From IMG/VR virus record IMGVR_UViG_3300029319_000528, positions 1 through 23,501 of that record: 23,501 bases of DNA; one strand, given 5' to 3'. A program made the translations under genes and the position numbers. Position 1 is the stretch's first letter; each line of letters starts with the position of its first letter. The notes under the pieces were generated by a model. The model had not been told where the DNA came from and did no database searches. It was given only the letters and a program-made list of their open reading frames with translations. This document shows, piece by piece, positions 1,366-21,934 of the stretch. The DNA comes from a virus.

Positions 1366-1664
1366 TGCCAGGCATAGTAAGAGTAGGAACAGATTCACAC
1401 GTTGGTCACGCTTCTCCAACTCCCAATCCTTTTCATCAAACTGCCTATGCAACAGGTGCCTCAAAAGTTTTTGTAAATGGTTCCCAAGCCGTTAGGATTA
1501 CAGACACCACAGGATGTGGAGATCCAGCTTCTGAAGGATCTAGTGATGTGTTTGCTGAGGGACTAGGCGTGCATAGAATAGGCGACGCAACCAGTGGGCA
1601 TGGTTCTTGGGTCGCAAATTCTGCGGCCACAGGATCGGGGGACGTGAAAGCAAATGGAGCATAA
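1365..1664 (+). CDS. 5.4: PAAR-domain spike tip protein (T4 gp5.4 type)
   Basis: This 99-aa protein is close to the length of T4 gp5.4 (97 aa). It starts with MPGIVRVGTDSHVGHASPTP and continues with glycine-rich PAAR-type turns. Candidate metal ligands are His12 or His15, Cys51 (in TGCGDP), His70 and His79; PAAR tips typically bind one Zn or Fe through three His and one Cys. The protein should cap the gp5 beta-helix with a sharp cone that first contacts the membrane. Its ATG overlaps the upstream stop by one base (TAATG), and AAAGGA lies about 11 nt upstream, so translational coupling is likely. A PAAR gene directly after a gp5-like gene is the arrangement expected for a contractile tail. Alternatives are unlikely. 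Confidence 0.9.
   Translation: MPGIVRVGTDSHVGHASPTPNPFHQTAYATGASKVFVNGSQAVRITDTTGCGDPASEGSSDVFAEGLGVHRIGDATSGHGSWVANSAATGSGDVKANGA
1656..1659 (+). promoter_or_regulatory. Shine-Dalgarno GGAG for the 86-aa gene
   Basis: GGAG lies 10 nt upstream of the ATG at 1670 and overlaps the end of the PAAR gene. It shows that operon-internal genes in this phage can use a Shine-Dalgarno sequence, unlike the promoter-proximal genes. Confidence 0.45.
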
Positions 1665-1669
1665 AGTAA

Positions 1670-1930
1670 ATGGCTAATCCAGATTATGCAACACTGTTGG
1701 CACAGATAGCCGCCGAAACTGATTCAACAGCCAGACAGACATTGATCAATCAGTGCTATGTGTTTGAAACCACACCCACTACATCAGAACAAAATTTATT
1801 CAATTACGTTGAGTCTGATTATGTTGAAGACAATCCAGGCAACACAGATGATTCATCTTCAGCTGACTCATCGACTTTATTTTCTGCATATGCAGGAGTT
1901 TATTTTAACAATGATGGAGAATCGACATGA
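1670..1930 (+). CDS. Unknown 86-aa acidic protein
   Basis: I do not recognise this protein. Residues 1-50 look alpha-helical (DYATLLAQIAAETDSTARQT, then INQCYVFETTP) and the C-terminal third is a Ser/Asp-rich stretch with DDSSSADSST. No signal peptide or membrane segment is visible. It is preceded by GGAG and overlaps the next gene by ATGA (1927-1930), so it belongs to the tail operon. The DSST-type stretch resembles motifs scattered through the other virion proteins here. A small virion or assembly protein is possible, but that rests on position only. An overlapping +1-frame ORF (1758-1952) looks like a shadow. Confidence 0.7.
   Translation: MANPDYATLLAQIAAETDSTARQTLINQCYVFETTPTTSEQNLFNYVESDYVEDNPGNTDDSSSADSSTLFSAYAGVYFNNDGEST
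1916..1920 (+). promoter_or_regulatory. Shine-Dalgarno GGAGA for the 160-aa gene
   Basis: GGAGA with a 6-nt spacer before the ATG at 1927 is the clearest ribosome binding site in the window. It lies inside the upstream coding sequence and supports the ATGA overlap start. Confidence 0.6.
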
Positions 1931-2409: not shown

Positions 2410-2417
2410 GATAAATA
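2410..2417 (+). promoter_or_regulatory. T4-type late promoter box (GATAAATA)
   Basis: GATAAATA matches the T4 late consensus TATAAATA at seven of eight positions. It sits just after the upstream stop. With T4 geometry (box at -13 to -6), +1 falls on 2423, the A of the next ATG. It would drive the Cys-rich protein and gp25. The mismatch makes it weaker evidence than the box at 3042, but the identical spacing to the start codon supports it. Confidence 0.6.
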
Positions 2418-2422
2418 TCAGC

Positions 2423-2563
2423 ATGGAAGAAAAAAACATCTGTAAAAACTGTGAATGTCCAAGTCATTGCACAGGCGGTCAATGCACAAATTGCCAACAA
2501 GCTGGTGAGTATTGTAATGAATGTGTTTGTGTGGACTGTGACGGTACAAACGTTATAAGATAA
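2423..2563 (+). CDS. 46-aa Cys-rich, metallothionein-like microprotein
   Basis: This short gene begins MEEKNICKNCECPSHC. Ten of its 46 residues are cysteine (7, 10, 12, 16, 21, 24, 31, 34, 36, 39) with one His (15). They form CxxCxC at 7-12 and CxxCxCxxC at 31-39, with a further CxxC at 21-24. Such density and spacing is typical of metal-thiolate proteins such as metallothioneins or of tiny zinc-binding knuckles; there is no signal peptide. ATG 2423 is the only plausible start and lies exactly at the predicted +1 of the late promoter box. The stop overlaps the gp25 start (TAATG), which ties its late synthesis to baseplate assembly. Possible roles, all inferred, are zinc or iron handling for metal-binding tail proteins such as PAAR, virion metal binding, or host metal or redox control. 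The periodic cysteines strongly favour a real gene. Confidence 0.8.
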   Translation: MEEKNICKNCECPSHCTGGQCTNCQQAGEYCNECVCVDCDGTNVIR

Positions 2564-3015
2564 TGGCTGTAAAAAATTTTAATGAAGTTGAGGGCACTAC
2601 ACAAGGTATAAGGAACACACGAATATTCCGTGGCCACAGCACAGTAGGTAGAACATTTGCTGATTCGAAAGTCTATGATATAGAATTAGTAAAACAAGAT
2701 TTGTTGAATCATTTTAATATTTTAAAAGGAGAAAAACTAGAAAATCCTGAATTTGGTACGAATATTTGGTTGTATTTGTTTGATCCACTTGACGATGAAC
2801 TTAAATCAGCTGTCATTGAAGATGTAGAAACAATTATAAATTATGATCCACGAGTTCAATTAGATAAAGTGGAAGTAAATCAGTACGAACATGGTCTGTC
2901 AGTAAGAGTGTCTGTGATATACACAGGATATGGTATTGGAGAGACAATGGACATGCTGTTTGATGAGCAACAAGGACTGTTGACAGGCCCTGCACAGGTA
3001 TATTCAGCGGCCTAA
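2563..3015 (+). CDS. 25: gp25-like baseplate wedge / sheath initiator
   Basis: This 150-aa protein belongs to the gp25 family of contractile-tail wedge components. The hallmark motif NPEFGTNIWLYLFDPLDD (about residues 62-79) is the conserved loop of gp25-type proteins, where the classical version carries an E-P-R or similar triad. A helix follows (SAVIEDVETIINYDPRVQLD), then beta strands (GLSVRVSVIYTG) as expected for the fold. In T4, gp25 is part of the wedge core with gp6 and gp53 and starts sheath polymerisation. It is slightly longer than T4 gp25 (132 aa), with the extra residues at the N-terminus. No Shine-Dalgarno sequence is visible; the start overlaps the upstream stop, so coupling to the Cys-rich gene is likely. 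Its neighbour gp6 is its structural partner. Confidence 0.92.
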   Translation: MAVKNFNEVEGTTQGIRNTRIFRGHSTVGRTFADSKVYDIELVKQDLLNHFNILKGEKLENPEFGTNIWLYLFDPLDDELKSAVIEDVETIINYDPRVQLDKVEVNQYEHGLSVRVSVIYTGYGIGETMDMLFDEQQGLLTGPAQVYSAA

Positions 3016-3041
3016 GTATTATCTTAGCACATTTCTAAAAC

Positions 3042-3049
3042 TATAAATA
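3042..3049 (+). promoter_or_regulatory. T4-type late promoter box (TATAAATA)
   Basis: This is an exact TATAAATA in the 39-base gap between gp25 and gp6. With T4 geometry the start of transcription would be 3055, the A of the gp6 ATG. No Shine-Dalgarno sequence lies between the box and the ATG. It would drive gp6 and the 13-kb giant gene, as no other promoter is seen up to 19567. Confidence 0.8.
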
Positions 3050-3054
3050 TTATT

Positions 3055-6000
3055 ATGCCATCAACAGACAGACAAAATGCCTTGCTGATAAACGATGCTT
3101 GGCAAAAAATATACAGGACGTTCTCACAAGCAGACTTCAAATCCTATGATTTTGATACTGTAAGGAGAACTTTGATTGATTATCTGCGTCTTAATTATTC
3201 AGAATCATTTAACGATTACATTGAATCCTCAGAATATGTTGCTTTAATTGATCTTATTTCATACATTGCCCAATCTATTTCTTATAGGGTTGATCTAAAT
3301 GCAAGAGAAAATTTTATTGATCTTGCTGAGCGTAAAGAATCGGTTTTAAGATTAGCAAGATTAATTTCTTATCAACCTAAAAGAAATATTGCAGGATCTG
3401 GTCTACTAAAAATTACATCTATATCAACGTCAGAGACTGTATTTGATGCAAACAGTAACAATTTAGCAAACACTCCTATTCTTTGGAATGATGTTACCAA
3501 CAACAATTGGCAAGAACAATTTAATGCAGTTTTAACAGCGGCACTACCAAGGGCACAATCAGTTGGCAAGCCAATATCAACAAGCACTGTCGGTGGAGTA
3601 ACAACTGATGTGTATAGATTTAATTCAAACAATTTAGGTTTGCCTATCAGTACATTTAGTAGAAATGTTAATGGAATAAACATGCAGTTTGAGATTGTAC
3701 CAAGCACACTTGAAGATGGTTTTGTTACAGAAGAACCGCCGGTGCCAGGTAATGCTTTAAGTTTTTTATACAAAAATGACACAAAAGGATTTGCTTCTAA
3801 CAACACTGGATTTTTTGTCCAATTTAAACAAGGCACAATACAGAATGAAGAATTTTCAATCACGTCACAACAACCAAATACTATTTTTAGTGTGTCGGAT
3901 ACAAGTATAAACAATGATGATGTGTATCTTTTTAAATTAGATCAAAACAAATTAATTGAAGAGTACTGGAAAAAAGTTCCTGCAATAACTGGCAACAATG
4001 TTATCTATAATAGTGTTGCAAGAAATATTCAGAACCAGTATGCAGTGGTAACAAGATCGAATGACGCCGTTGACTTAGTCTTTTCCGATGGTACATACGG
4101 AACTATGCCAGTTGGTACATTTAGAGTGTATTACAGAAAATCAAACGGTCTGTCATACAGAATACAAACTGCAGACATGCAAAATGTCACATTTGATATA
4201 GATTACGTGTCTAAGAATAATCAGATCAACACTCTTACTATTACAGCGTCTTTACAATCAGCTATCACCAATGCCGCACGTTCACAAACTATAGAAGAGA
4301 TCAAAACCTTAGCACCACAAAGTTATTACACCAACAATAGAATGATAACTCCGGAAGACTATCAAATTATTCCTTTGGTCGAAAATCCAAGTTTGGCTAA
4401 AGTGAGATCACAGGTAAGAGCAATTAGTGGCACATCAAGATTTTTGGATGTAACAGATCCAACTGGTGTTTATTCAGAAACAGACATAGTTGCAGATGAT
4501 GGGATATTGTACAAGGAAGAAACAGAAGAATCCTTTGATTTTTCATTCACCACTAGAGATGAGGCACGGAAAGTAATAACCAGTGATGTATCAAACATTT
4601 TTGAATCCAACAGTCTGAAACAGTATTATTATGACAAATACAATAGACCACAAATCGCTGGATCTAAACTGTGGAACAAGACTACACAAACAACTAACCA
4701 AGTTACAGGATATTTTAAAGATATTGCAGATGATTCTAGTGTATTTGCAGTTGGAACAAATGCACTTAATAATTTACAGTACGTAAAAGCAGGTGCCCTA
4801 CTAAAATTTATCCCTACTGCAGGAAATCATTTTATGCCTAACTTAGGTACACAGATGACAGGCACTGGCGGACATCCAGGTAGTGCTGATGTCATATGGA
4901 CCAAAGTTATAAGTGTAGAAGGTGACGGATCAAATGGAGGATTAGGCGATCTTGCTGATGGAACAGGCCCAATAGTGCTGTCCGATCTTGTGCCTACAGA
5001 TGCACAAATTACCGAAATTATTCCTAATTTTGTTGATTCAATTGCATCAAGTCTAGAGACTGCAATACTTGACAAACTAATTGATTACAAAAACTTTGGT
5101 CTAGGATATGATGAAAATGCCAGCACTTGGTATGTAATTGATGAAGATGATATCAACACAACACAAACATTTGATTTGTCATTTGCTAAGGACACAACAG
5201 GTGCTGGACGTGATAGATCATGGTTGATAAGGTTTTCTACTAATGGCGTAACATATTCAGTGTTTAATCGTGCAGTGCAATACACATTCCAAAGTTTTGA
5301 TAGAAACAAGTTTTATTTTGATCAATCTGAAAAGGCAGTTGACCCAGAAACAGGTCTAGTAATTAAAGATTCTATCACAGTATTAAAGTCGAACACAAAG
5401 CCTGATTTTGTAAGCAATTTAACTTATGATTACAAATGGCAAATTGTAAAAAATGTTGTGGGCACAGATGGCTACAATGACACAAGAATGATGCAAGTTG
5501 GACTGTTTGACTCAGATGATGATGGCGTGTTTGATAATCCAGATCTATTTGAATTAATAGTTGCTCCATCCACAAGCCAAGACAGCAAATATGTGTTTTT
5601 CCAAACTGTCACTGTCAACGGCTTCGAACAAGACAACCCTATAAAAAATACTGAATTTGTCACAGTTCCTACTGAAGACGATATTACTAATCTTGCAGTA
5701 TATGGAGATGAACAAAAATTTTATTTTTGGCAGGATGATGAATTTAAAACATACAACGCAACATCAGGAGTGCTAGAAGATTTAGAAGGATATAAAGCAA
5801 AGCAGGGCAGACAGGATTTAATATACAAGTACAATCATGGCGCACCAAGGACAAGGAGATTAGATCCTTCCGTTAGTAATATTGTTGATTGTTTTGTTTT
5901 AACAAAAACTTATGACACTGATTTTAGGATATGGTTGAACAATAATCAATTATCCACTAAACCAACACCTCCTACGGTGGCGGGACTAAACGACACATAT

Positions 6001-6564
6001 GGGCCTAGTCTTAACCAATTGAAAAGTGTAAGTGATACGGTTGTATTCAATCCAGGTGCATATGTTTTATTATTTGGAAAAGGTGCAGACAAAGAATTAC
6101 AAGCAACATTTAAGGTTGTAAAAAATCCTTCTACCGCAGTGTCAGACAATTCGATAAAATCAGATTTAATTACAGCCATTAACAATTTCTTTGCCTTACA
6201 ACTTTGGGACTTTGGGGATACTTTTTATTTTACAGAATTAGCCGCTTACTTACATAATGTACTAGCACCAGATGTTTTAAGTGTTGTTATTGTGCCAAGT
6301 AGCTCTACAGTTAGTTTCGGCTCTTTATTTGAAGTCACAGTAGGAGATAATCAACTTCCTATTTCTTCTGCAACAGTCGACAATGTTCAAATTATTTCAT
6401 CTAACACTGCTGAACAATTAAAAGCATCTGGTACAGTTGTTTCCTCAACAGGGACAACAACAACTACAGGCACGGCGTCTTCAGCTACCACTGCATCAAC
6501 AACAGCAAGTAGTTCTGTAAGTTCTACTGTGACATCAGGATCATCAGGCTCAGGATACTACTAA
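3055..6564 (+). CDS. 6: gp6-like baseplate wedge protein, enlarged
   Basis: This is a 1169-aa wedge core protein. The N-terminus (about residues 1-115) carries a conserved gp6 region including YSESFNDYIESSEYVALIDL and ENFIDLAERKESVLRLARLI. A baseplate J-like segment, DLVFSDGTYGTMPVGTFRVY, is near residues 340-360, and MITPEDYQIIPLVENPSLAK is near residue 430. The last large folded part (SDLITAINNFFALQLWDFGD onwards) resembles the gp6 C-terminal region used for dimer contacts. T4 gp6 has 660 residues, so this one has roughly 500 extra, mostly between about residues 450 and 1000. It ends in a Ser/Thr-rich low-complexity tail (about 1120-1169). In T4, gp6 dimers make the ring that holds the wedges together. 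The start is supported by the promoter position and the lack of nearby downstream ATGs. Confidence 0.9.
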   Translation: MPSTDRQNALLINDAWQKIYRTFSQADFKSYDFDTVRRTLIDYLRLNYSESFNDYIESSEYVALIDLISYIAQSISYRVDLNARENFIDLAERKESVLRLARLISYQPKRNIAGSGLLKITSISTSETVFDANSNNLANTPILWNDVTNNNWQEQFNAVLTAALPRAQSVGKPISTSTVGGVTTDVYRFNSNNLGLPISTFSRNVNGINMQFEIVPSTLEDGFVTEEPPVPGNALSFLYKNDTKGFASNNTGFFVQFKQGTIQNEEFSITSQQPNTIFSVSDTSINNDDVYLFKLDQNKLIEEYWKKVPAITGNNVIYNSVARNIQNQYAVVTRSNDAVDLVFSDGTYGTMPVGTFRVYYRKSNGLSYRIQTADMQNVTFDIDYVSKNNQINTLTITASLQSAITNAARSQTIEEIKTLAPQSYYTNNRMITPEDYQIIPLVENPSLAKVRSQVRAISGTSRFLDVTDPTGVYSETDIVADDGILYKEETEESFDFSFTTRDEARKVITSDVSNIFESNSLKQYYYDKYNRPQIAGSKLWNKTTQTTNQVTGYFKDIADDSSVFAVGTNALNNLQYVKAGALLKFIPTAGNHFMPNLGTQMTGTGGHPGSADVIWTKVISVEGDGSNGGLGDLADGTGPIVLSDLVPTDAQITEIIPNFVDSIASSLETAILDKLIDYKNFGLGYDENASTWYVIDEDDINTTQTFDLSFAKDTTGAGRDRSWLIRFSTNGVTYSVFNRAVQYTFQSFDRNKFYFDQSEKAVDPETGLVIKDSITVLKSNTKPDFVSNLTYDYKWQIVKNVVGTDGYNDTRMMQVGLFDSDDDGVFDNPDLFELIVAPSTSQDSKYVFFQTVTVNGFEQDNPIKNTEFVTVPTEDDITNLAVYGDEQKFYFWQDDEFKTYNATSGVLEDLEGYKAKQGRQDLIYKYNHGAPRTRRLDPSVSNIVDCFVLTKTYDTDFRIWLNNNQLSTKPTPPTVAGLNDTYGPSLNQLKSVSDTVVFNPGAYVLLFGKGADKELQATFKVVKNPSTAVSDNSIKSDLITAINNFFALQLWDFGDTFYFTELAAYLHNVLAPDVLSVVIVPSSSTVSFGSLFEVTVGDNQLPISSATVDNVQIISSNTAEQLKASGTVVSSTGTTTTTGTASSATTASTTASSSVSSTVTSGSSGSGYY

Positions 6565-6565
6565 G

Positions 6566-9500
6566 ATGGGTAAAAGCACACGCAAAACCCAAACGTTACT
6601 TCCTGCAATATTTCAAACTCCTAAAAATACGGATTTTCTTGAAGCAACACTTGATCAATTGATCGAACCCACTAAAGTACAAAAATTATCACAATTTGTT
6701 GGTAGAACAACTGAAGCAAACTACAAAATTGATGACGGATATGTACCGGAACTTTCAGAAGATAGGAAAAACTATCAATTGGAACCAGCAACAGTTTATA
6801 AGTCTGATGGCCAGACTGTGGATTTTGCTGTACCATACATTGATCTAATCAATGAAATAAATGCAAGTGGTGGAAATTATTCTAAACATGATAGAATGCT
6901 ATCAAATCAAACATACTCTTACGCACCGCCAATTGATGCTGACAAATTTGTAAATTATAGAGAATACTATTGGATGCCTTTGGGCCTATCCCCGATTAGA
7001 TTATCACCAGGCACACCTGGAGCTAGAGTTGGATTCGATGTGGTAAACAATGCCGCCGGAGGATATCAGTTCAGTCATAAGTCCATAAGCAATCCAGACA
7101 TTATTGTATACAAAGGCAACACGTATGATTTTAAAATAAATGCTTACGGACATCCGTTTTGGATCAAATCACAGTATGGCACAGGCACAGACTTTGCAAT
7201 TAGCACCGAATTAGTGACCAACAATGGAGCACAAGAAGGCACAGTCACTTTAAAAGTGCCGGCCAGTGATTCCAGCACAAACCATCCAAACGTATTATAC
7301 TATCAGTGCCAAAATCATATTGCAATGAAAGGCCGAATAATAATACGTGACCTTGCAGATGAGTTATTTGACGTAGAAGAAAATTTAATAGGAGCAACTG
7401 CATTTACAGACTACACTGGATTAGTAGCATCAAACGGGCAAGTTGTTACATTATCAACAGATGTAAGTGAAACACATCAAAATAAAACTTACTACATTGA
7501 AGGAGTTGGCACCGACATAGATTTAATTCCTGAAACTGAAATACGCACATATGGTGATTGGGCACAAGAACTAGGTGCTATATGGGACGAAGACGGTCTA
7601 GAGGGTTGGGACACCACGGGGTTCGATAATTCAACTGGACAATTAGTTAAGACAGATTATTTCACAATATCTAGACAATCGCCTGATAGAAATGCTTGGT
7701 CAAGATCAAACAGATGGTTTCACAAAAGCGTGATAGAGGAGTCGAACAAACGTAACAATTATGCAGTAAATTTAAAAGAAGCTGATAGAGCAAAAAGGCC
7801 AATTATTGAGTTTCAGTCAGGATTGAACCTTTATAATCATGGAACTTCGCACAGGGTGATAGATGTGCTTGACACAACCACAACTGATGCTTTAAGTCTT
7901 GTGGCAGGTACGTCAGGATTTATAGCAGATACCACACTGTTACGTGAAGGTGACAAAGTTGTGTTTACGGCTGATCCTGTTGAAAATAATAAAATTTTCA
8001 CTGTAAGATATCTTGCCTTAGATTCATCTACTGCTGTTGAAAACATAGACAATGTACAACGTATTCATCTACAACTGGAAGATGATTCAACAGTGATTGC
8101 AGATGGAACCGCAGTTGTTGCAAAAAGAGGCAACGCTAACAAAGGACAAACTTATTACTACACAAGGTCGACTGGTGAATGGACAAAGGCACAGCAAAAA
8201 ACAGGAGTCAATCAAGCTCCATTGTTTGATGTGTTTAACACATCGGGTATTTCAATTGGAAATCTAGATACCTACGTGTCTACAAACTTTACAGGAAATA
8301 CTGTGTTTGCGATTAACACAGATGAGCAAGGCACTGCTGATACTGTTTATGGACAAAACGTATTGTATTCCCGTTTAGGTCTACTATCAGATATACAAGT
8401 AAAAGATTCTTATAATGACAGCACATTTTCATATGTATCTGGAAGTGCAACAGTTACAGAAGATGTCAAACAACATTTTATGAGACGCACCAACAGACTT
8501 GGAGAGCACACTTATATCACAAACTATGCAAAATCTGGCACAGCTGTAAAACAGAGAGTGGTACAACAATACACTGCTGATAAAAATCAAACAGATTATG
8601 AAGTATCTTCTTTTGCTAAACCATCTGATTTGTCAGATTTAAATGTGCAAGTTTATGTAAATGGCATTAAAACAACTGAATTTTCCACTGTGTCTGGAAC
8701 TGACAGTAAATTATTTGTGAGGCTTGACACTGCGTCAGCACAAGATGATATTGTTACAATTAAGTCACATAGTACCACAGGCACTAGAACATCACAAGGT
8801 TATTATGAAGTGGCAGTGGCAGCTGAGAAAAATCCACTTAATGAAAGCATTTCTTTATTCACAGTTGGGGATATTAAAGAACATTATGTATCTGCACTTA
8901 ATAATCTTGACACAGTGACAGGAACACAAATAGGATCAAATAATACAAAAGACTTGCCCGCTGTATTTGAAAACGGCACAACCATTTTACAACATGAAGG
9001 AAGTTTTCCATTGGCATCTTTATTTGCTAGAGACAATGATGTTAATTTAGTAGACGCTTGGAGACAAACTGGATCCCATTATGAACAGTTCAAAGCAAAC
9101 ATTTTAAGACAAAGTGAAAAATTAGTTAGTGGGGATATAGCACGTGACAACCTTGATGCAATTTTGGAAGTTATTAATGCAAACAAAAATAGTGCCATGG
9201 CATATTACGACTCAGACATGTTGGCATATGGAACAGACAAGACCCAATTAAAATACACAGTTGTAGACAGTAGTGTACAATATTATCCTATAACAACAGA
9301 GTTTGATCTTGATTCACTTTCTACAAAAGCAATTTATGTGTACGTAAATGATGTACAACTTATACACGGAAAAGATTATAACTTTGTAGGTGTTGATGAC
9401 AGTGCAAATTTCACAGGTATAGAAGTAATGGCATCTTTAGCAAAAGATGATGTAATTAAAATAGAAGAATATGTTTCTACAGATGGAAACTTTGTGCCTC

Positions 9501-12500
9501 CTACTCCAGCCAAATTAGGATTAGCACCAGCATATGAACCAACTTTAAGTTTCGACAACACTTACCAAGCAGATGACAGTACAACAAATGGGGTCAAAGT
9601 ATTGCTTGGTCATGATGGAAGTAAAATGATTGCATTTAATGACTTTCGTGATGAGATAATGCTTGAATTTGAAAAAAGGATCTATAATAACATTAAAGTC
9701 AACCATGATGTAAGTATGTCAGATATCGCATTTGGTAGATTTAAAACAAATGAATATACTAGAACAGAATTGCTTAATATTTTTGCTAGGGACTTTTACT
9801 ATTGGTCAGGAGTAAATGGTGTAGACTACACAACCAATGACGTGTACACTGGAGAAAATGCATTCACATGGAACTATACTGATTTTTCCAAAACAATTAA
9901 CAGATCAACTGACACAGATCCACTACCTGGCCACTGGCGTGGAGCATATTTAGAATATTATGGCACGACATCTCCACACACTAAACCTTGGGAGATGTTT
10001 GATTTTTCAGTCAAACCTTCTTGGTGGGATGATGAATATGGACCTGCACCTTACACCGCTGGAAATGCTACTCTTTGGGATCACGTCAAACGCGGTCAAA
10101 TTGCAAGAGGCTCTAGAGCTGGAACATATGAAAGATATGCAAGACCTGACATATACACAGCCATACCAGTAAACGATAATGGGGATTTGCTAGATCCAGG
10201 GACTGCTGGATTACTGGCTGATGACACAGTCAATTCTTTAAACAAAACAAAAAATTGGATATATGGCGATCTAGGGCCTGCTGAACATGCTTGGCGATTT
10301 AGTTCATCATGGCGATTTGCAGAACAAATAGCACACTTTCTTTCACATCCTGTAAAGTATGCAGGATTATTTTTTGATGTATCAAGGCAGTCTAAGAATA
10401 TTATTAATCATACAGTGTATGACGGGAAATATCGAACTTCACCAAACAATTTTACATTACCTGGTACGGATCAAACAGCAGGTTATATTAATATTATTGC
10501 TGATTATCTAAAAGGCACAGGGGTTGATGTGATAAACGCATTGAAAGTAAGACTTGATAACCTTAGTGTGCAATTAGTTTACAAGATGGCAGGTTACACT
10601 AACAAAGATAATTTAGAAGTAAAATTAGGATCTAGTTCTCCGTTAAGTTCAAGTCAATCTGTTTTCGCGCCTAAAGAAAACTATGATCTTGTTGTTCACA
10701 AATCAGCACCATCATCTGTTGTTAATTATTCGGGTGTAATTGTAGAAAAGTCAACCAATGGATATAAAGTAAGCGGATATTCAAACTTCGATAGAGCTTT
10801 CACTATCTTTCCTGCTATTGTTAATAATGATTATGCCGACATTGCTGTTGGGCAAACCACAGAAAGTTTCACAGAATGGCAAGGTGGAGGATTTTATAAT
10901 ATTGGTTCGATCGTGCGGAATGAGGGCAAATATTATAGAGCTAAAAAGGCAATTTCTTCATCGCAAACATTTGTAGAAGGAAACTGGGATCTAATTGGTT
11001 CAGCATTACCTTTAAAAGGGGGAACAAAAGTAAGAAAATACAAGTCATACAGTCCAGTTGCGGCCACAGTGCCTTATGGTACAGAATATCGGACAGTGCA
11101 GGATCTAGCAAATTTTATCTACGGCTATGAAAAACATTTACAAGGTAAAGGTTTTGTGTTTGATGAATTTTCTACCGATCTAAATTTAACAATGGATTGG
11201 GATCTTTCAGCAAAAGAAATATTGTTCTGGACAACACAAAATTGGGCCAATGGATCTGTGCTGTCTGTTTCTCCGGCTTCCAGTGTATTAAAACACACCA
11301 AGAAAGACTCTATAGGAGATGATCTTGTACAAGGAGATAAGTTTTATACTGTGTTACAGCAAGATGGCCTACCTATACAACCAAAAAATCTGCGTGTAAG
11401 AAGAACAGATGGAGAGTTTATAATTGAAACCAATCCTGCTGAAGATGGAATATACAATGCTGATATTAGACCTGTACAGAAAGAACATTTACTAATTTTA
11501 GATAATGAAACATCGTTTAAAGATGTAATTTATGATCGAATACTTGGTACAAGACAAGTTCGACTAAAACTTGTAGGATTCAAAACTGCAGATTGGCAAG
11601 GTGATTTATATGCTCCAGGATTTATTATAGACAGAGCACTAGTGAAAGATTGGACTGAATACACTGATTACAAAATCGGAGATGTGGTAAGTTATCAAGG
11701 AAATACATATGCCGCCACAGTAAATCATGCATCGACCAACACATTTGATCCAAGTAAATTTGTTAATAAACCTACGCCGACTAATGATATTTTAAACAAC
11801 CTTGATAACAAGGCAGAATCTTTCCGCGATTTTTATAGTTTAGACACTGAAAACTTTGACGCGGAACAGCAAAGATACGCTCAACATTTGATAGGATATC
11901 AAAAAAGAGATTATCTTGTCAATTTAGGATTTGAAGAACAGACACAGTATAAATTGTATCAAGGATTTATCAAAGATAAAGGCACTAGTAAAGTTGTTGA
12001 TAGATTTAGGTTACCTAATCAGAAAGGACAAAGTAAAACATTCGATCTTTTTGAAGAATGGATGTTCCGTGTTGGTGAGTACGGCGGCCATAGAACACTA
12101 ACACAATTTGCCTATCCTGTGAGTGACAGCACGCACAAGGAATTGCAGTATGTGTATGAACTTACTGCATCAACAAAAGATGATACTGAAACTGTTATAA
12201 ATGTTGCGGACACTGAATTAAACAAAAGGCCATACAATTTGCCTTCGACAAAATTTGGCACATACACCTATGATAGTTCAAACTATCCTGCAAGTATTTT
12301 AAAACTTGGCACAGCAGGATACCCACAAACAGAACAAGTAGATTTTACTGTATGGGCAATAGATGATTTGTTTAATTTAGATGTATCAACTTTTGAAGAA
12401 GGCACATTAATTTGGGTAGCAAATACAGCCTCTGGTAGTTGGGACGTGTTACGAGTTAACACTTTAAAAACCCCTATTTTAGATTACAAACAGTTTGACG

Positions 12501-18500: not shown

Positions 18501-19567
18501 TGTTCAAAGCTTCAACAGGTGCTTTAGTGTTCAATGAAGTCGACTATGGTGCAGTTGCATTAGGAGATTCAAGCACAGATGATTCGTCCACAACACCTAT
18601 TGTTCCTGGCACATTTATTGATCTTGGAGCAATCACAAGTGCCGCTACATCAATTATAGATCGTGGATCGATTGTAAATGATGCATCAATAGCAGACATT
18701 TCGGAAAAAACATACGTGTTAGATTTTGTTCCTACTAATTCTGATTATGTGTTTGTGGCACTGAACAAAAATTATCTAACAGCCAATATAGATTTTAGAG
18801 TTGAAGGCAACAAAGTTATTATTCCTAGAATAGCTCCAAGTACAACTGATGTTGTCACAGTCCATTATTTGGCAGAAAATACTATCAGTCAAAATGCAAT
18901 AGGATACAGAATATTTAAAGATATTTTGAACAGATATCATTATAGAAGAATAAGTGAAACACATTCTACAGTGTTGACACAAACTTTAAATGTCAACGAC
19001 ACTGAGATACAGGTTAGCAATACAAGTGTGTTACCTACACCAGATATTGCAAACAATGTCCCTGGCGTAATATTCATTGGTAAAGAAAGGATTGCGTACT
19101 TCGAAAAAGATGGCAACACTCTGAAAAGATTGTTTAGAGGTACATTAGGAACTGGCGTTCAAACTCATGTTGGTGGCACCCGTGTAGTTGATGCATCTAA
19201 AATTCAAGAAATACCATATGAAGATACGACGACAATGAATCGTCATACTGGCGATGGTTCAACAGTGTTCTTCGGAACAACGTTCACCCCAAGTGATAAA
19301 AATCAATTAGTAGTTGAGGTTGGTGGCGAAACGACAACTGCATATTCACTTGGGGGTGATTCGAGTCAAGGCATACAGTTTGACACTGCTCCAGCGTCAG
19401 GCGTATTTGTTAGAATATATCTTAAAACTGGATCTATATGGTACACAGCTGGCACAGCAGATGATTCAAGCACAGCGGCAGATGGCTTAGGTTTACAACA
19501 ATCTAATACGGCCCAAGCAAAATTCCTTAAAGAAGAAACAACTAATATTGATTTAATTTTAGTTTAA
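6566..19567 (+). CDS. Giant 4333-aa modular baseplate / tail structural protein
   Basis: The gene starts one base after the gp6 stop, with a weak AGGA 10 nt upstream. Residues 1-160 begin with LLPAIFQTPKNTDFLEATLD and carry PPIDADKFVNYREYYWMP, a region I associate with large virion proteins of T4-like marine phages. Modules in order: cupredoxin-like domain (168-261); YFTISRQSPDRNAWSRSNRW region (about 365-385); Trp-rich block (about 1110-1270); two CBM5/12-like modules (about 1435-1480 and 1690-1740); seven FG-GAP-like repeats (about 2090-2690) with inserts; GLENRPRQTMFKDR region (about 2980); Gly-rich repeat (about 3340-3420); a third CBM-like module (from 3451); and several DGST-type beta modules to the end. 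No signal peptide or membrane segment is apparent. It sits where T4 has gene 7 and may do part of that job at the wedge periphery while also binding glycans; this is inference. A single open frame of 13 kb with no interruption argues that it is functional. Confidence 0.88.
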   Translation: MGKSTRKTQTLLPAIFQTPKNTDFLEATLDQLIEPTKVQKLSQFVGRTTEANYKIDDGYVPELSEDRKNYQLEPATVYKSDGQTVDFAVPYIDLINEINASGGNYSKHDRMLSNQTYSYAPPIDADKFVNYREYYWMPLGLSPIRLSPGTPGARVGFDVVNNAAGGYQFSHKSISNPDIIVYKGNTYDFKINAYGHPFWIKSQYGTGTDFAISTELVTNNGAQEGTVTLKVPASDSSTNHPNVLYYQCQNHIAMKGRIIIRDLADELFDVEENLIGATAFTDYTGLVASNGQVVTLSTDVSETHQNKTYYIEGVGTDIDLIPETEIRTYGDWAQELGAIWDEDGLEGWDTTGFDNSTGQLVKTDYFTISRQSPDRNAWSRSNRWFHKSVIEESNKRNNYAVNLKEADRAKRPIIEFQSGLNLYNHGTSHRVIDVLDTTTTDALSLVAGTSGFIADTTLLREGDKVVFTADPVENNKIFTVRYLALDSSTAVENIDNVQRIHLQLEDDSTVIADGTAVVAKRGNANKGQTYYYTRSTGEWTKAQQKTGVNQAPLFDVFNTSGISIGNLDTYVSTNFTGNTVFAINTDEQGTADTVYGQNVLYSRLGLLSDIQVKDSYNDSTFSYVSGSATVTEDVKQHFMRRTNRLGEHTYITNYAKSGTAVKQRVVQQYTADKNQTDYEVSSFAKPSDLSDLNVQVYVNGIKTTEFSTVSGTDSKLFVRLDTASAQDDIVTIKSHSTTGTRTSQGYYEVAVAAEKNPLNESISLFTVGDIKEHYVSALNNLDTVTGTQIGSNNTKDLPAVFENGTTILQHEGSFPLASLFARDNDVNLVDAWRQTGSHYEQFKANILRQSEKLVSGDIARDNLDAILEVINANKNSAMAYYDSDMLAYGTDKTQLKYTVVDSSVQYYPITTEFDLDSLSTKAIYVYVNDVQLIHGKDYNFVGVDDSANFTGIEVMASLAKDDVIKIEEYVSTDGNFVPPTPAKLGLAPAYEPTLSFDNTYQADDSTTNGVKVLLGHDGSKMIAFNDFRDEIMLEFEKRIYNNIKVNHDVSMSDIAFGRFKTNEYTRTELLNIFARDFYYWSGVNGVDYTTNDVYTGENAFTWNYTDFSKTINRSTDTDPLPGHWRGAYLEYYGTTSPHTKPWEMFDFSVKPSWWDDEYGPAPYTAGNATLWDHVKRGQIARGSRAGTYERYARPDIYTAIPVNDNGDLLDPGTAGLLADDTVNSLNKTKNWIYGDLGPAEHAWRFSSSWRFAEQIAHFLSHPVKYAGLFFDVSRQSKNIINHTVYDGKYRTSPNNFTLPGTDQTAGYINIIADYLKGTGVDVINALKVRLDNLSVQLVYKMAGYTNKDNLEVKLGSSSPLSSSQSVFAPKENYDLVVHKSAPSSVVNYSGVIVEKSTNGYKVSGYSNFDRAFTIFPAIVNNDYADIAVGQTTESFTEWQGGGFYNIGSIVRNEGKYYRAKKAISSSQTFVEGNWDLIGSALPLKGGTKVRKYKSYSPVAATVPYGTEYRTVQDLANFIYGYEKHLQGKGFVFDEFSTDLNLTMDWDLSAKEILFWTTQNWANGSVLSVSPASSVLKHTKKDSIGDDLVQGDKFYTVLQQDGLPIQPKNLRVRRTDGEFIIETNPAEDGIYNADIRPVQKEHLLILDNETSFKDVIYDRILGTRQVRLKLVGFKTADWQGDLYAPGFIIDRALVKDWTEYTDYKIGDVVSYQGNTYAATVNHASTNTFDPSKFVNKPTPTNDILNNLDNKAESFRDFYSLDTENFDAEQQRYAQHLIGYQKRDYLVNLGFEEQTQYKLYQGFIKDKGTSKVVDRFRLPNQKGQSKTFDLFEEWMFRVGEYGGHRTLTQFAYPVSDSTHKELQYVYELTASTKDDTETVINVADTELNKRPYNLPSTKFGTYTYDSSNYPASILKLGTAGYPQTEQVDFTVWAIDDLFNLDVSTFEEGTLIWVANTASGSWDVLRVNTLKTPILDYKQFDDKVQFETRDQHGLVAGDILAVMDFSGQAEGVYRLEEPFDSTDTSTKFSITFTDSLDSVATQGTLAKLQSVRINDFDDISTITPPKGWQVDDYVYVDNNYETNDGLWQVYKRDALGNFEVQGSLTLNSDLSDAKADDENFGHDLTLSNDGKWMAVGSPNKNRVLIYNRPTLNEAIINYQQLTPDLANSAADDLFGNAVDISTDGTTLLIGCPQTSDIVKMTSVSLDSTRTLSRGTDVTGAVTGATGKILRYEEGESQDVFHIKVTAGTDFADSALNAFDSSSVTVVDAITDGDRTNQGTVYVVTRNVDQLYATRENIVSPVLAQGEKFGHAVAISENSEWIAVGAPGGPNDSTFANRGSVYVYRQIQDSSSASASYIYQQTLTPGDDEEEKDDSANQEQQFGDVVKISGDGNTIVVGAKLHDDSSVTDAGRVYVFRKLNDTFVKVEEFGPTVARNETRFGEAIDISADGGDLLIGSPREKDTVSEEGIVYHYTNNVSNHVADGSTTAFVPSFTVDKYTRLYVSSDVNQYKFDDSSTTLSYHVNESTNTVTLSSAPALNEKIVIQQYKFQSKIKGSPVEVGARFGSQIAVYNDQLAVYSSSGLTTRKTTFDKFRLDSSSTARNETTFDNKGTTFSSDVQDTGNVQMFKKYSDTFIHNETLTNNSAASNDSFGEALAVSDRYVYVAAPDREILVNNDSSTRENAGEVFIYEKTGTIDYWNVDVKQPNLVNPFLLRKSFLYTRGNNTLVQDMPRIDPVKDLLFTDVEQNIKFKVPFDPADYNSWNDEHVGEVWLDTTQLKFLWYEQGDYNYKLKNWGKVHPSATVSVKEWVKSLLTPTQWNAQSSTSEGQQEGFTGTANDVFATQQVFDDRTNGFETYYYYWVEESTTLPNVDTRSLTTSQIANAIRDPKSFAENYSAVVGQDAILLSIQPSVLTNKNLAFHIENTTDVDFIEPHVEYQLVAEGDDDITINADLVAKMEDSFIGFDKFGRSVPDLTFPDDMRYGLENRPRQTMFKDRIGALKGIVEFANDRLLDQPYATQVDLTLFNQKDPIPNILLGEYDRAVDTEIDIEYINTETLSAGFKVLVEFDSLAEGWVIYEYDGATFSRVRTQTYDTTRYWSLADYYVTGYSASTVPDIIVADEKGKKELAAPTAGTVVKVRSSYNGKFRLYVKTAQGYDVVGIGDGTIQLSTGIYDLASVNAGFGGDAYDTKVYDEEAVQELRNILQGIQNFNQSSEFNYNELFFTAVKIALEQDSGVDWVVKSSFLKKNNIIESMPIGTEFELDNSDNVTKYFNEVLPFATKVRDDVNKYGILDTNEGDFTDFDNQTYWDTTKREYINPEVFPGDSTYYDVYENYPHKFYSDNYKYSIASIVVDDGGAGYTTPPDVSVAGGGGSGTVAKAVVIDGVVSSIQVTTVGTGYIETPTVVINGGGGAVTTEAKAHAVLSNSKIRKLNETIKFDRIASNHGLAGGPASIKTWTKDTVYSKGDNIRFGNEIYRVQNSFKSGATFDADVLQDDSTVSGDSSTVGSLNPLVLWNAADRIHAYYSPTTGMPGLIGDGSTVINAYAQLMTGLEYKGVRIQSPTFSTGEGYDQSNYDMTNYDKNTSDPDLTAEDLTDLDTVIDSKTFTTSLGTRAEDINVVGDAFISEYSANGPEELLPGGVYDTMDMKIFTRTTDGASIIQKRNHYGDGSTSTFSIPEPKAVDGVRVFINDQFKLQTTDYTIDYKNKTITFTSVPPLNSFIKIVCFQVSTDNLLANITREGDGSTVAFNINVTHNLIKQTYVLVNGVKTAITLSREVGKQTSTVTFSTAPADDAVIDMYFFDLDTSTKAFSEVETTEYTVATDSSETTLSLTTLPSSFGPFHHKVIVEGVAGTTSTNRYRLKPPQVKYYTGDGTTVIFLVPDEPQDSELATVANTEVYLNGVKQSPATYQLETTAELKSQINFSTAPASGDAIAIVMKVGMDYTVNEQGQLRLYNNWPDGSTIHNEKIFVTTFNNHDQMGMRTQVFKASTGALVFNEVDYGAVALGDSSTDDSSTTPIVPGTFIDLGAITSAATSIIDRGSIVNDASIADISEKTYVLDFVPTNSDYVFVALNKNYLTANIDFRVEGNKVIIPRIAPSTTDVVTVHYLAENTISQNAIGYRIFKDILNRYHYRRISETHSTVLTQTLNVNDTEIQVSNTSVLPTPDIANNVPGVIFIGKERIAYFEKDGNTLKRLFRGTLGTGVQTHVGGTRVVDASKIQEIPYEDTTTMNRHTGDGSTVFFGTTFTPSDKNQLVVEVGGETTTAYSLGGDSSQGIQFDTAPASGVFVRIYLKTGSIWYTAGTADDSSTAADGLGLQQSNTAQAKFLKEETTNIDLILV
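7067..7348 (+). other. Cupredoxin-like domain with complete type 1 copper ligand set
   Basis: Residues about 168-261 of the giant protein look like a cupredoxin beta-sandwich: strand GNTYDFKINAYGHPFWIKS, a middle hairpin, and then YYQCQNHIAMKGRIIIRD. His196, Cys248, His251 and Met254 are arranged as H...C-x2-H-x2-M, the amicyanin-type spacing of type 1 copper sites. The codons were checked at 7151, 7307, 7316 and 7325. Metal binding is inferred; the ligand pattern is seen directly. Confidence 0.65.
10868..11000 (+). other. CBM5/12-like module 1 in the giant protein
   Basis: Residues about 1435-1478 follow the small carbohydrate-binding module pattern: Trp (FTEWQGG), then FYNIGSIVRNEGKYYRAKKA, then a terminal GNWDLIG. 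The spacing of the aromatics fits chitin-binding-type CBM5/12 modules, which are common in phage tail proteins. The ligand is unknown. Confidence 0.5.
11642..11773 (+). other. CBM5/12-like module 2 in the giant protein
   Basis: Residues about 1693-1736 contain DWTEYTDYKIGDVVSYQGNT followed by YAATVNHASTNTFDPSKF. This is the best match of the three to the W...Y..GD.V.Y.G..Y.A pattern of CBM5/12. A role in attachment to host or particle glycans is plausible. Confidence 0.55.
12820..14632 (+). other. Seven FG-GAP-like repeats: predicted seven-bladed beta-propeller
   Basis: Seven FG-starting repeats occur at residues 2117, 2171, 2305, 2378, 2436, 2560 and 2647 of the giant protein (codons 12914, 13076, 13478, 13697, 13871, 14243, 14504). 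Examples are FGHAVAISENSEWIAVGAPG and FGDVVKISGDGNTIVVGAK, usually followed by a GxVYVY-type strand. This is the pattern of FG-GAP / integrin-alpha-type blades. Repeat 2 has an insert of about 75 residues before its GTVYVV strand, and a DGST-type module is inserted between repeats 5 and 6. The fold is inferred from repeat number and consensus. Confidence 0.7.
16591..16826 (+). other. Gly-rich GxGY/GGGG tandem module in the giant protein
   Basis: Residues about 3342-3420 hold two half-repeats: DDGGAGYTTPPDVSVAGGGG with VVIDGVVSSIQV, and then TTVGTGYIETPTVVINGGGG. This beta-hairpin-type repeat recurs in phage and bacterial surface proteins. Here only two units are present. The function is unknown. 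Confidence 0.55.
16907..17120 (+). other. CBM5/12-like module 3, with Ser/Asp insert, in the giant protein
   Basis: From Trp3451 the sequence reads WTKDTVYSKGDNIRFGNEIY, the same W...Y..GD...G..Y pattern as modules 1 and 2. A Ser/Asp/Thr-rich insert (DDSTVSGDSSTVGS) precedes the terminal LWN. It is the weakest of the three because of the insert. Confidence 0.4.
17540..19440 (+). repeat. C-terminal DGST-type beta modules of the giant protein
   Basis: At least four divergent modules begin with GDG(S/T)T near residues 3661, 3735, 3865 and 4229 (codons 17546, 17768, 18158, 19250). Each runs about 65-80 residues through a VxVNG strand and ends in a (T/S)xxPxxxxxI-type strand. Related modules appear at about 13997-14210 (inside the propeller) and, less clearly, near 8580-8790, 9270-9490 and 18700-18880. 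They are probably immunoglobulin-like or beta-sandwich spacers; identity between copies is low at both protein and DNA level. Confidence 0.6.
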
Positions 19568-21240
19568 ACCTGAATAAAAACTAAGCGAGAATGTGTTAGT
19601 AGATCGTCTACCATTGATCTACCAATTACTGCATTTGGATTGGCATCATTGTTTGCCATTGCATGACCGTCTGTGTTAGAAGTAACAAGAAGGTCGCCTT
19701 TGTTGACCGGTCCTGTAACCATACATTGTATTTTTCCTTTAAGAGCCACAGCAGGGCCTTCCTGATCAGCGTTCATTAGATACGCAGGTTTGTCGGATAC
19801 AACTCCTGCTATTTTAGTGTCATTTGCAGTGGTTGACTTTGTAACTTCTTTTGTTCCACCAAACACTAACACTGTACCAATTTCATATGCCATGTCTGCA
19901 TCATAACGCTCTGCCAAGTCAGCGTATTGTGCTGATGTTGCAGTTCCTGTAATCAGTCCTGACACACGTAAAGCATCATTTACAAGTATCTCTGTTGAAT
20001 CATGTGCGGACAATACCTGTGTTCTTATGTTTGTAATTGTAACCTCACTTGAATCTACTGATGTAATCTCATTAACTTGTAATGATCCTAATACTTCTAA
20101 GCCTTCATTTACTACAATATTTGTTGAGTCTGTTGACTCTATTTCTCGAACATCAAGCACTCCGCAAGTGATTGTGCCTGATGCATTCAAGTTTCTAAAT
20201 TCACTAGCATCTTTGTCAGCATTAACAACAACTGCTTTGTTGGCCGCTATTGTTCCATTTGTTATTCCATCTAGTTTTTCTAGATCAGTTTCATTCATGT
20301 CAGCTGATCCAATAATAAATGAACCAGTGGCTGTTACGTTTCTAAAATCACCTATGTCTTTGTTTGAATCAACAACTACTGCTTTGGATGCCGCAACTGT
20401 GCCTGCTGTGACGCCATCTATCGTTTCTAGTTCTGCCTCAACTATCTCAGCATCACCTATTGTAAATCCACTTGCTGTTACTACACCACTTGCTTCAACA
20501 GCTCCATCAATAGCGATTGTGGTTGAATCTTCTGCTCTTAAAGTTCCGGCTAACAATAGATCATCTGCTATTGTAATTCCTGTCGAATCGGATGATTGCA
20601 ATACGTTTACATTAATTGTATCACCACCGATAGTAGTGCCATTAGCAGTTATTGTTCCTGAAACTTCTAAACTTCCATCAACATTAAGTGTGGCAGAGTC
20701 TTCTGCACGTAAAGTTCCCGCCAACAATAAATCATCATTTATTGTAATACCTGTTGAGTCACTGCTTGTTAAAACATTTGTAGTGATTGTGTCAATAGTA
20801 AATGCTCCTGATACGCTTAATCCTCCATCTATACTAATAGTTGCAGAATCTTCTGCTCGTAATGTACCTGCTAAAAGTAAATCGTCTTTGATTGTTATGC
20901 CTGTCGAGTCTGTGGATGATATCTCATTAACTGTAATTTGGTTATCTAAATTAAATGTAATTGTATCACCTGTTACTGCTGATGTTAAACTTGTACCACC
21001 TAAAAACTTAATGTCAGATGTTCCTGGCGTCACTGTTAAACTGTTTGATGACGCATCTGAAAATGAGTGTGTGGTTGCCGTAAGTTCACTAAATGTAGCA
21101 ATTCTTGTACCGCCTGTTGTGGCGCCATCATGCACTCTGATTGTGTTAAGATCAGTATCTACAGTAACCTCTCCTGAGGCTCCTACAAATGAATTGTGGT
21201 CGTTTGTTGTGCCACGTCTAAATTGTACCTGAGTTGCCAT
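19564..21240 (-). CDS. Repeat-rich tail fibre, inverted relative to the baseplate genes
   Basis: This 558-aa protein has an N-terminus VQFRRGTTNDHNSFVGASGE followed by VDTDLNTIRVHDG, the short attachment-type domain found at the start of many phage fibres, including the Mtd family. Residues 100-260 hold three copies of DSTGITIxDDLLLAGTLRAE, and 271-355 hold two copies of an IDG/LDG repeat with ASKAVVV/ANKAVVV; both suggest a trimeric beta-helical shaft. The C-terminal region, YADLAERYDADMAYEIGTVL and KIAGVVSDKPAYLMN (about 439-489), is a conserved fibre-end domain in marine phages and vaguely resembles chaperone or peptidase G2-type tips. It is transcribed leftward from its own late promoter, converges with the giant gene and overlaps that gene's stop by four bases. 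It is probably a receptor-binding or shaft fibre. There is no reverse transcriptase or variable repeat nearby. Confidence 0.85.
   Translation of the reverse strand: MATQVQFRRGTTNDHNSFVGASGEVTVDTDLNTIRVHDGATTGGTRIATFSELTATTHSFSDASSNSLTVTPGTSDIKFLGGTSLTSAVTGDTITFNLDNQITVNEISSTDSTGITIKDDLLLAGTLRAEDSATISIDGGLSVSGAFTIDTITTNVLTSSDSTGITINDDLLLAGTLRAEDSATLNVDGSLEVSGTITANGTTIGGDTINVNVLQSSDSTGITIADDLLLAGTLRAEDSTTIAIDGAVEASGVVTASGFTIGDAEIVEAELETIDGVTAGTVAASKAVVVDSNKDIGDFRNVTATGSFIIGSADMNETDLEKLDGITNGTIAANKAVVVNADKDASEFRNLNASGTITCGVLDVREIESTDSTNIVVNEGLEVLGSLQVNEITSVDSSEVTITNIRTQVLSAHDSTEILVNDALRVSGLITGTATSAQYADLAERYDADMAYEIGTVLVFGGTKEVTKSTTANDTKIAGVVSDKPAYLMNADQEGPAVALKGKIQCMVTGPVNKGDLLVTSNTDGHAMANNDANPNAVIGRSMVDDLLTHSRLVFIQV
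20176..20430 (-). repeat. Two IDG/LDG fibre repeats
   Basis: Residues 271-306 and 320-355 of the inverted fibre repeat with a period of 49 residues: L-E-x-(I/L)-D-G-(V/I)-T-x-G-T, then A(S/N)KAVVV, then an FRN-containing end. This unit is common in phage fibre shafts. Confidence 0.75.
20525..20910 (-). repeat. Three 65-bp repeats in the inverted fibre gene
   Basis: Copies lie at 20525-20589, 20696-20760 and 20846-20910 and encode DSTGITIxDDLLLAGTLRAE plus flanks. They are offset by 171 and 150 bp. The protein copies are nearly identical while the DNA differs mainly at silent positions, so purifying selection on the shaft sequence is more likely than a very recent duplication. Confidence 0.8.
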
Positions 21241-21247
21241 ATGCAGT

Positions 21248-21255
21248 TATTTATA
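21248..21255 (-). promoter_or_regulatory. T4-type late promoter box, leftward
   Basis: On the minus strand this is an exact TATAAATA. With T4 geometry +1 would be 21242, leaving a two-base leader before the fibre ATG at 21240. No Shine-Dalgarno sequence is possible in that leader. Confidence 0.75.
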
Positions 21256-21257
21256 AC

Positions 21258-21265
21258 TATAAATA
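21258..21265 (+). promoter_or_regulatory. T4-type late promoter box, rightward
   Basis: This is an exact TATAAATA, two bases from the leftward box. With T4 geometry +1 would be 21271, giving a four-base leader before the ATG at 21275. It would drive the 219-aa structural gene and the paralogous pair behind it. Confidence 0.75.
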
Positions 21266-21274
21266 ACAGAGCAC

Positions 21275-21934
21275 ATGACAGATCAAGCTGACAATACGAT
21301 GCAAAAAAAGGACGATACAGTGAAAAAACCTGACGAAAAACAAGGACTTAACATTGAAGGTTACATCAAAATATTCGACCCTGAATCAGGCACTGTCTAC
21401 GTAGACAAAAAGAACGCAATACATTATGAAAATTTTTCAGTTGCACTAGCAAAGTCTATATCTAACAGAACTACAGGATTCATAGAAGAAATGCATTTTG
21501 GAAATGGTGGTACAACTGTAGATGCTACAGGCACAATCACATATTTGACACCAAATTCATCTGGGGACAATGCTAATCTTTACAACAAAACATATTCTAA
21601 AAGTATAAATGATACTTCGTCATTAAATTTAGATGCTTCAAGAAACAAAATTACAACAGCACACACAAATGGTACCACATACACAGATGTAATTGTTACA
21701 GCATTATTAGATTTTGGTGAGCCAGCTGGACAAAGTGCTTTTGATAACACAACAACTTTGAATGATACATTTGTGTTTGATGAAATAGGATTGTTTTCAT
21801 GGGAAGGATCAGCAGGTGAAGGTAATTTATTGACTCACGTCATATTTCACCCAGTGCAAAAATCATTAAACAGATTGATACAAATAGACTACACAATCAG
21901 GATACAAAGTTTGACTAATTTTGTGGATGTATAA
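21275..21934 (+). CDS. Virion structural protein of a T4-like marine phage type
   Basis: This 219-aa protein has a charged N-terminal tail (about 1-24, rich in Lys and Asp). The core starts at about residue 25 with NIEGYIKIFDPESGTVYVDK, followed by NAIHYENFSVALAKSISNRT and then FIEEMHFGNGGTTVD. I associate this core with structural proteins of T4-like cyanophages and pelagiphages. The middle is beta-rich and Thr/Asn-rich. The C-terminal HPVQKSLNRLIQIDYTIRIQ resembles closing strands of a virion or baseplate protein. The start is supported by the promoter immediately upstream; a second in-frame ATG (residue 9) is less likely because of its position. The next gene starts four bases after the stop. 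The exact location in the particle is not known to me. Confidence 0.7.
   Translation: MTDQADNTMQKKDDTVKKPDEKQGLNIEGYIKIFDPESGTVYVDKKNAIHYENFSVALAKSISNRTTGFIEEMHFGNGGTTVDATGTITYLTPNSSGDNANLYNKTYSKSINDTSSLNLDASRNKITTAHTNGTTYTDVIVTALLDFGEPAGQSAFDNTTTLNDTFVFDEIGLFSWEGSAGEGNLLTHVIFHPVQKSLNRLIQIDYTIRIQSLTNFVDV

Follow-up and report, generated by a model that had tools for sequence, protein, structure and literature searches.

The late genes of bacteriophage T4 are the textbook case of a promoter followed by a leader and a Shine-Dalgarno (SD) sequence. The T4 late box covers positions -13 to -6 (PMC1524935; see also PMC2988020), -13 being its variable position among T4-like phages (PMC1524935). In the Thermus phage phiYS40, middle and late mRNAs are leaderless, and IF2 goes up and IF3 down during infection (PMC3594737); the locus described here would share with it the leaderless later transcripts, but both phage and host are different. 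A second parallel comes from Deinococcus-Thermus, where a -10 region abutting the open reading frame yields leaderless mRNA (PMC12340547). There, too, a few bp separate a -10-type box from the start codon and spacing is constrained, but the genes are cellular and the motif is TANNNT, whereas a phage late sigma factor would be involved here. Late promoters of pelagimyophages could not be predicted in one study, which does not report leaderless-type late genes for these phages (PMC7029224); another gives 15 late promoters for Melnitz, in passages where leaders are not discussed (PMC9004378). Literature searches on leaderless mRNA, either in cyanophages or with late promoters of the T4 type, returned no direct precedent.

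The analysed stretch, called the window from here on, is an entire virus record of 23,501 nucleotides (IMGVR_UViG_3300029319_000528), itself a fragment. By gene content it belongs to a T4-superfamily myovirus: it carries a gp5-type hub, PAAR, gp25, a 1169-aa gp6, a 4333-aa ORF and tail-fibre genes. Among isolates, jumbo T4-like phages (Phosso, Atu_ph07, SCTP-2, PA5oct, RaK2 group) have the nearest gp6 proteins, and from the relatives of the window we infer a marine origin. The 4333-aa protein is encoded, after gp6, by a single ORF (6566-19567), which has a 4-nt overlap with the convergent gene for the tail fibre. The small Cys-rich protein located before gp25 is conserved, with a length of 46-54 aa and the pattern ICKxCxxPSHC...CxCxxCD. 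Coordinates are reported in Table 1.

Table 1. Late boxes, SD-like cores and relevant genes of the window; transcription starts (+1) and leaders (in nt) are predicted from the T4 start distance.
Feature	Position	Strand	Details
T4-type late box GATAAATA	2410..2417	+	predicted +1 at 2423, leader 0
T4-type late box TATAAATA	3042..3049	+	predicted +1 at 3055, leader 0
T4-type late box TATAAATA	21258..21265	+	predicted +1 at 21271, leader 4
T4-type late box TATAAATA, divergent	21248..21255	-	predicted +1 at 21242, leader 2
Weak SD-like GGAG, operon-internal gene 1670 (contrast)	1656..1659	+	10-nt gap
SD core GGAG, operon-internal gene 1927 (contrast)	1916..1919	+	7-nt gap, good
Small Cys-rich protein, 46 aa, heads gp25 operon	2423..2563	+	no SD; homologues in 7 relatives
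gp25 baseplate wedge, second gene of the operon	2563..3015	+	no SD
gp6 baseplate wedge	3055..6564	+	no SD; phrog_10646, E=1e-290
Tail fibre, 558 aa, Mtd N-terminal domain (PF18454)	19564..21240	-	no SD
219-aa gene, phrog_11259 (unknown function)	21275..21934	+	no SD; E=5e-72

An earlier note on this DNA had read four T4-type late boxes, and all of them were recovered, with the positions and strands of Table 1. The gaps that separate them from the ATGs at 2423, 3055, 21275 and 21240 (minus strand) are 5, 5, 9 and 7 nt, so that the distance is indeed the same at the 2410 and 3042 boxes, and the leader lengths given in that note are reproduced when the box is placed at -13 to -6, as in T4. The resemblance to the T4 system (gp55/gp33/gp45) extends to the motif TATAAATA, to its first base being the most variable and to its position ahead of late structural genes. 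The spacing is different: T4 boxes are found 12-35 nt from the ATG, with an SD in between, whereas in the clade of the window the distance is 5-10 nt and the SD is missing.

The arrangement recurs in relatives. For the 2410 box, a box 5 nt from the ATG of the homologous small gene is found in L155 and L198, and CTAAATA occupies the same place before the small Cys-rich gene in L199 and L153. The spacing of the gp6 box (3042) is kept at 5-6 nt across the clade, homologues of the 219-aa gene have their box mostly at 4-9 nt, and the 7-nt distance of the minus-strand box is identical in L277, L278, L280 and L386. The two divergent boxes (21248-21265) are 2 bp apart, and their simultaneous binding by two polymerases is hardly possible; divergent boxes in two relatives, G016 and G019, are about 40 bp apart.

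No AGGA, GGAG or GAGG core was found in SD position at any of the four box-led genes of the window, which bears out what had been claimed for them. The SD assigned by the same note to the operon-internal genes at 1670 and 1927 is good for the latter and only weak for the former (Table 1). The internal genes at 2563 and 21938 are likewise devoid of an SD.

Scans of viral contigs for gp25 and gp6 produced about 230 loci; the start codon of gene 6 is established by the homology of the N-termini. Of 142 distinct gp6 starts, 11 have the box 5 nt from the ATG, 27 at 6 nt, 32 at 14-16 nt and 64 at 18-30 nt; the remaining 8 have no exact box, and 5 of them carry GTAAATA at 5 nt. In the clade of the window, every member having a box has it at 5-6 nt, and no SD is present. 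One sister group has the box at 14-16 nt, also in the absence of an SD, and the other at 18-30 nt, where the interval up to the ATG usually contains an SD-like core (57 of the 61 tree rows at 18 nt or more). Four changes on the gp6 tree suffice for the three distance classes. The 5-6 nt class does not group together but forms two clades, one with 32 rows and one with 7, the smaller of which takes in the GTAAATA cases; over both lineages the spacer shows 18 different sequences and a constant length.

Two further features of gene 6 may be mentioned. In a sister clade (L206-L269), predicted leaders are 9-11 nt long and have no SD, an intermediate condition between leaderless and SD-led. A GCACATTT-like stretch (3027-3034 in the window) is located about 7-15 nt upstream of the late box and recurs at most gp6 promoters, in all three distance classes. 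Late promoters of T4, in contrast, lack any upstream element as well as a -35 region.

Distances were also tabulated, as the earlier note had proposed, beyond gene 6. In a clade set made up of the window and seven non-redundant contigs (eight records, 399 kb), 26 of the 40 ATAAATA sites are intergenic and have an ATG 5-10 nt downstream; the 20 remaining arrangements of these letters, taken together, are so placed in 37 of 3,899 cases, some of which overlap true boxes. Among the genes led by these boxes are those of virion proteins and of a widespread family with the N-terminus MAYTINKTDG; for this family the box-to-ATG distance is 6-15 nt within the clade and mostly 22-31 nt outside it. At clade genes other than gene 6 the distance varies over 5-11 nt, so that many leaders would measure 1-6 nt rather than zero; a few promoters (G016 5335, G019 71222) have the box at 16 nt and an SD. 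Overall, the sharp peak predicted in that note was obtained for the clade of the window, at 4-7 nt.

When all viral loci are considered, the distances of 278 distinct intergenic boxes are bimodal, with 86 at 4-11 nt, none at 12-13 nt and the rest mostly at 14-30 nt. An SD accompanies 3 of the 86 boxes at 4-11 nt vs. 94 of the 151 that are at least 15 nt away (Fisher P=1e-21), and becomes common from 18 nt. Since only 3 of the 278 boxes are closer than 4 nt, the lower edge of the distribution corresponds to the +1 of T4. Because gene starts are set at the first ATG that opens a long ORF, the procedure is biased to short distances; despite this bias, its application to T4 returned nothing under 12 nt, the boxes lying at 12-35 nt with SD sites, in agreement with the contrast drawn originally. 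GTAAATA is frequent at 4-7 nt, often upstream of gp25, and was excluded from the counts as an added box variant, AAGGTAAATA being also readable as an SD plus a stop codon. In L026, L029, L031 and others, AAGGTAAATA or GGGTAAATA precedes the ATG of gp25, and of some other genes, by 4-7 nt; these stretches could represent either a variant late box or an SD followed by a stop codon.

Cultured phages were analyzed as well. In HTVC008M, whose host is Ca. Pelagibacter ubique HTCC1062, seven intergenic boxes are located exactly 5 nt from an ATG, including that of gp25 and that of a gene annotated as tail-tube cap; SD-led genes having the box at 18-36 nt are present as well. The record positions of the seven are 6267, 7549, 16013, 18922, 19443, 31119 and 49747, and boxes with an 18-nt gap lie at 36494 and 46284. 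Five boxes at 5 nt are present in the Pelagibacter phage Mosig and three in the Methylophilales phage Melnitz (Kyanoviridae). Almost all of the 5-nt boxes of the three phages are SD-less, as in the clade of the window, but these phages form a different T4-like group, and only part of their late genes is so organized, the remainder being SD-led. Box-abutting starts in the clade and, separately, in the HTVC008M group indicate that no fewer than two groups acquired or retained this arrangement. In S-PM2, RaK2, Atu_ph07, Phosso and PA5oct the boxes are distant; in SCTP-2 they are mainly so, with one at 3 nt and one at 5 nt inside a gene call. An alphaproteobacterial host was rejected as the sole cause, given that Phosso and Atu_ph07 infect alphaproteobacteria, yet their boxes are distant. 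The proposal that leaderless initiation is a standard mode for late first genes would hold within the clade of the window, and not for the sister clades and the pelagiphages, which mix leaderless-type and SD-led late genes.

A late sigma factor of the gp55 family is encoded by most contigs of the clade, as in T4; in G001 the protein matches phrog_12791 (E=4e-76), and its gene is located about 7 kb upstream of gp6. No gp55 gene is found within the 23.5-kb fragment represented by the window. The gp55 proteins of the clade share 25-32% identity, over the aligned part, with that of HTVC008M, and the T4 start distance is carried over to these divergent proteins as an assumption. In HTVC008M, gp55, gp45, a putative late promoter factor and bS21 are annotated; annotations for the co-factors gp33 and gp45 are present in HTVC008M, Mosig and Melnitz.

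On these grounds, the four boxes are very probably late promoters read by gp55, from which the first genes of late operons would be expressed as leaderless or near-leaderless mRNAs, independently of an SD. The gp55-family factor would recognise the boxes as T4-type late promoters, and the polymerase carrying it would initiate at a fixed distance of about 6 nt beyond the box; with a box 5-10 nt before the ATG, the predicted +1 is the A of the AUG itself or at most 5 nt before it. Translation would then start in the absence of SD pairing, presumably via a 70S/IF2-type recognition of the 5' AUG, while the remaining genes of these phages would stay SD-led, and those of the sister lineage would rely on a promoter 18-30 nt upstream plus an SD. 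The constant length of 18 different spacers, the missing SD and the late sigma gene of the relatives all speak for this reading, and a fixed distance whose lower edge falls at +1 fits selection for a terminal or nearly terminal AUG.

It is improbable that the boxes are real late promoters whose start is shifted by a few bases, with leaders of 3-12 nt and SD-independent initiation at AT-rich starts. SD-less short leaders do exist, as judged from boxes lying 7-11 nt from the ATG at several clade genes and, with no SD, 14-16 nt from it at gene 6 of a sister clade, but the peaks at exactly 5 nt in HTVC008M and at 5-6 nt for gene 6 match the +1 of T4, and a leader of a few bases would not demand so exact a distance.

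Far less credible is that the boxes close to the ATG do not work, the genes being expressed from longer upstream transcripts and ATAAATA being just a feature of AT-rich start regions. The genes do sit in long co-directional operons, and an SD is absent at some internal genes too. Starts lacking a box, however, use SD sequences: 33% of the box-less clade genes with unambiguous starts have one, over a background of 6.8%, and SD use elsewhere in HTVC008M is 42%, so the missing SD at box-proximal starts does not reflect a global lack. Within the clade alone the contrast (28 of 84 box-less vs. 1 of 14 box-proximal starts) is marginal (P=0.06), and it reaches P = 5e-4 when the clade is pooled with HTVC008M and Mosig. 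Permuted 7-mers of equal composition are not enriched at these positions, the same box is found in relatives 18-30 nt upstream with an SD, and the divergent gene pair of the window has one box on each strand, all of which argue against non-working boxes. AUG is the codon at 82 of 83 box-proximal starts, even when GTG and TTG are allowed.

Chance or gene-start miscalls can be dismissed: one-mismatch boxes are no commoner than in shuffles (46 matches to TATAAATA in the window vs. 48.9), but all three exact copies lie 5, 7 or 9 nt upstream of a gene ATG, while only 132 of 46,988 placements fall 0-10 nt before a gene start (P ~2e-8 for 3/3), and the permuted 7-mer control, the many relatives and the homologous N-termini that fix the start codons agree with this. 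Given the one-mismatch figures, the signal is in the position of the boxes and not in their number, and copy number was dropped as evidence.

Returning to leaderless or near-leaderless expression, a doubtful extension would be that, in at least two marine T4-like groups, a single sigma factor serves two late modes, whose balance is set by a late change of ribosomes or initiation factors, for example by a phage-encoded bS21. This protein is encoded by HTVC008M (91228-91431), Mosig (9932-10141), Melnitz (35389-35661) and G022 (262775-262930), the first three being the isolates in which late genes of the leaderless type occur and the last a jumbo contig. As a general companion of the arrangement bS21 was discarded: it is present in 1 of 24 records and absent from all clade fragments searched, although fragments cannot prove absence. 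If true, the two-mode late programme would add a translational switch to late transcription.

Leaderless phage mRNA is already known from phiYS40 (PMC3594737); what appears to be new is its systematic use, in leaderless-type form, under T4-type late promoters of marine phages whose sister lineages have orthologues with leaders. At least two separate groups of ocean phages would have a T4-type promoter fused to the start codon, and the orthologues that keep a leader in a sister lineage offer natural paired comparisons. Late-promoter searches and SD-based start calling may overlook such starts during annotation. Under this reading, leaderless phage mRNA should be translated well in marine hosts such as SAR11, which is experimentally accessible, as both HTVC008M and its host are cultured.
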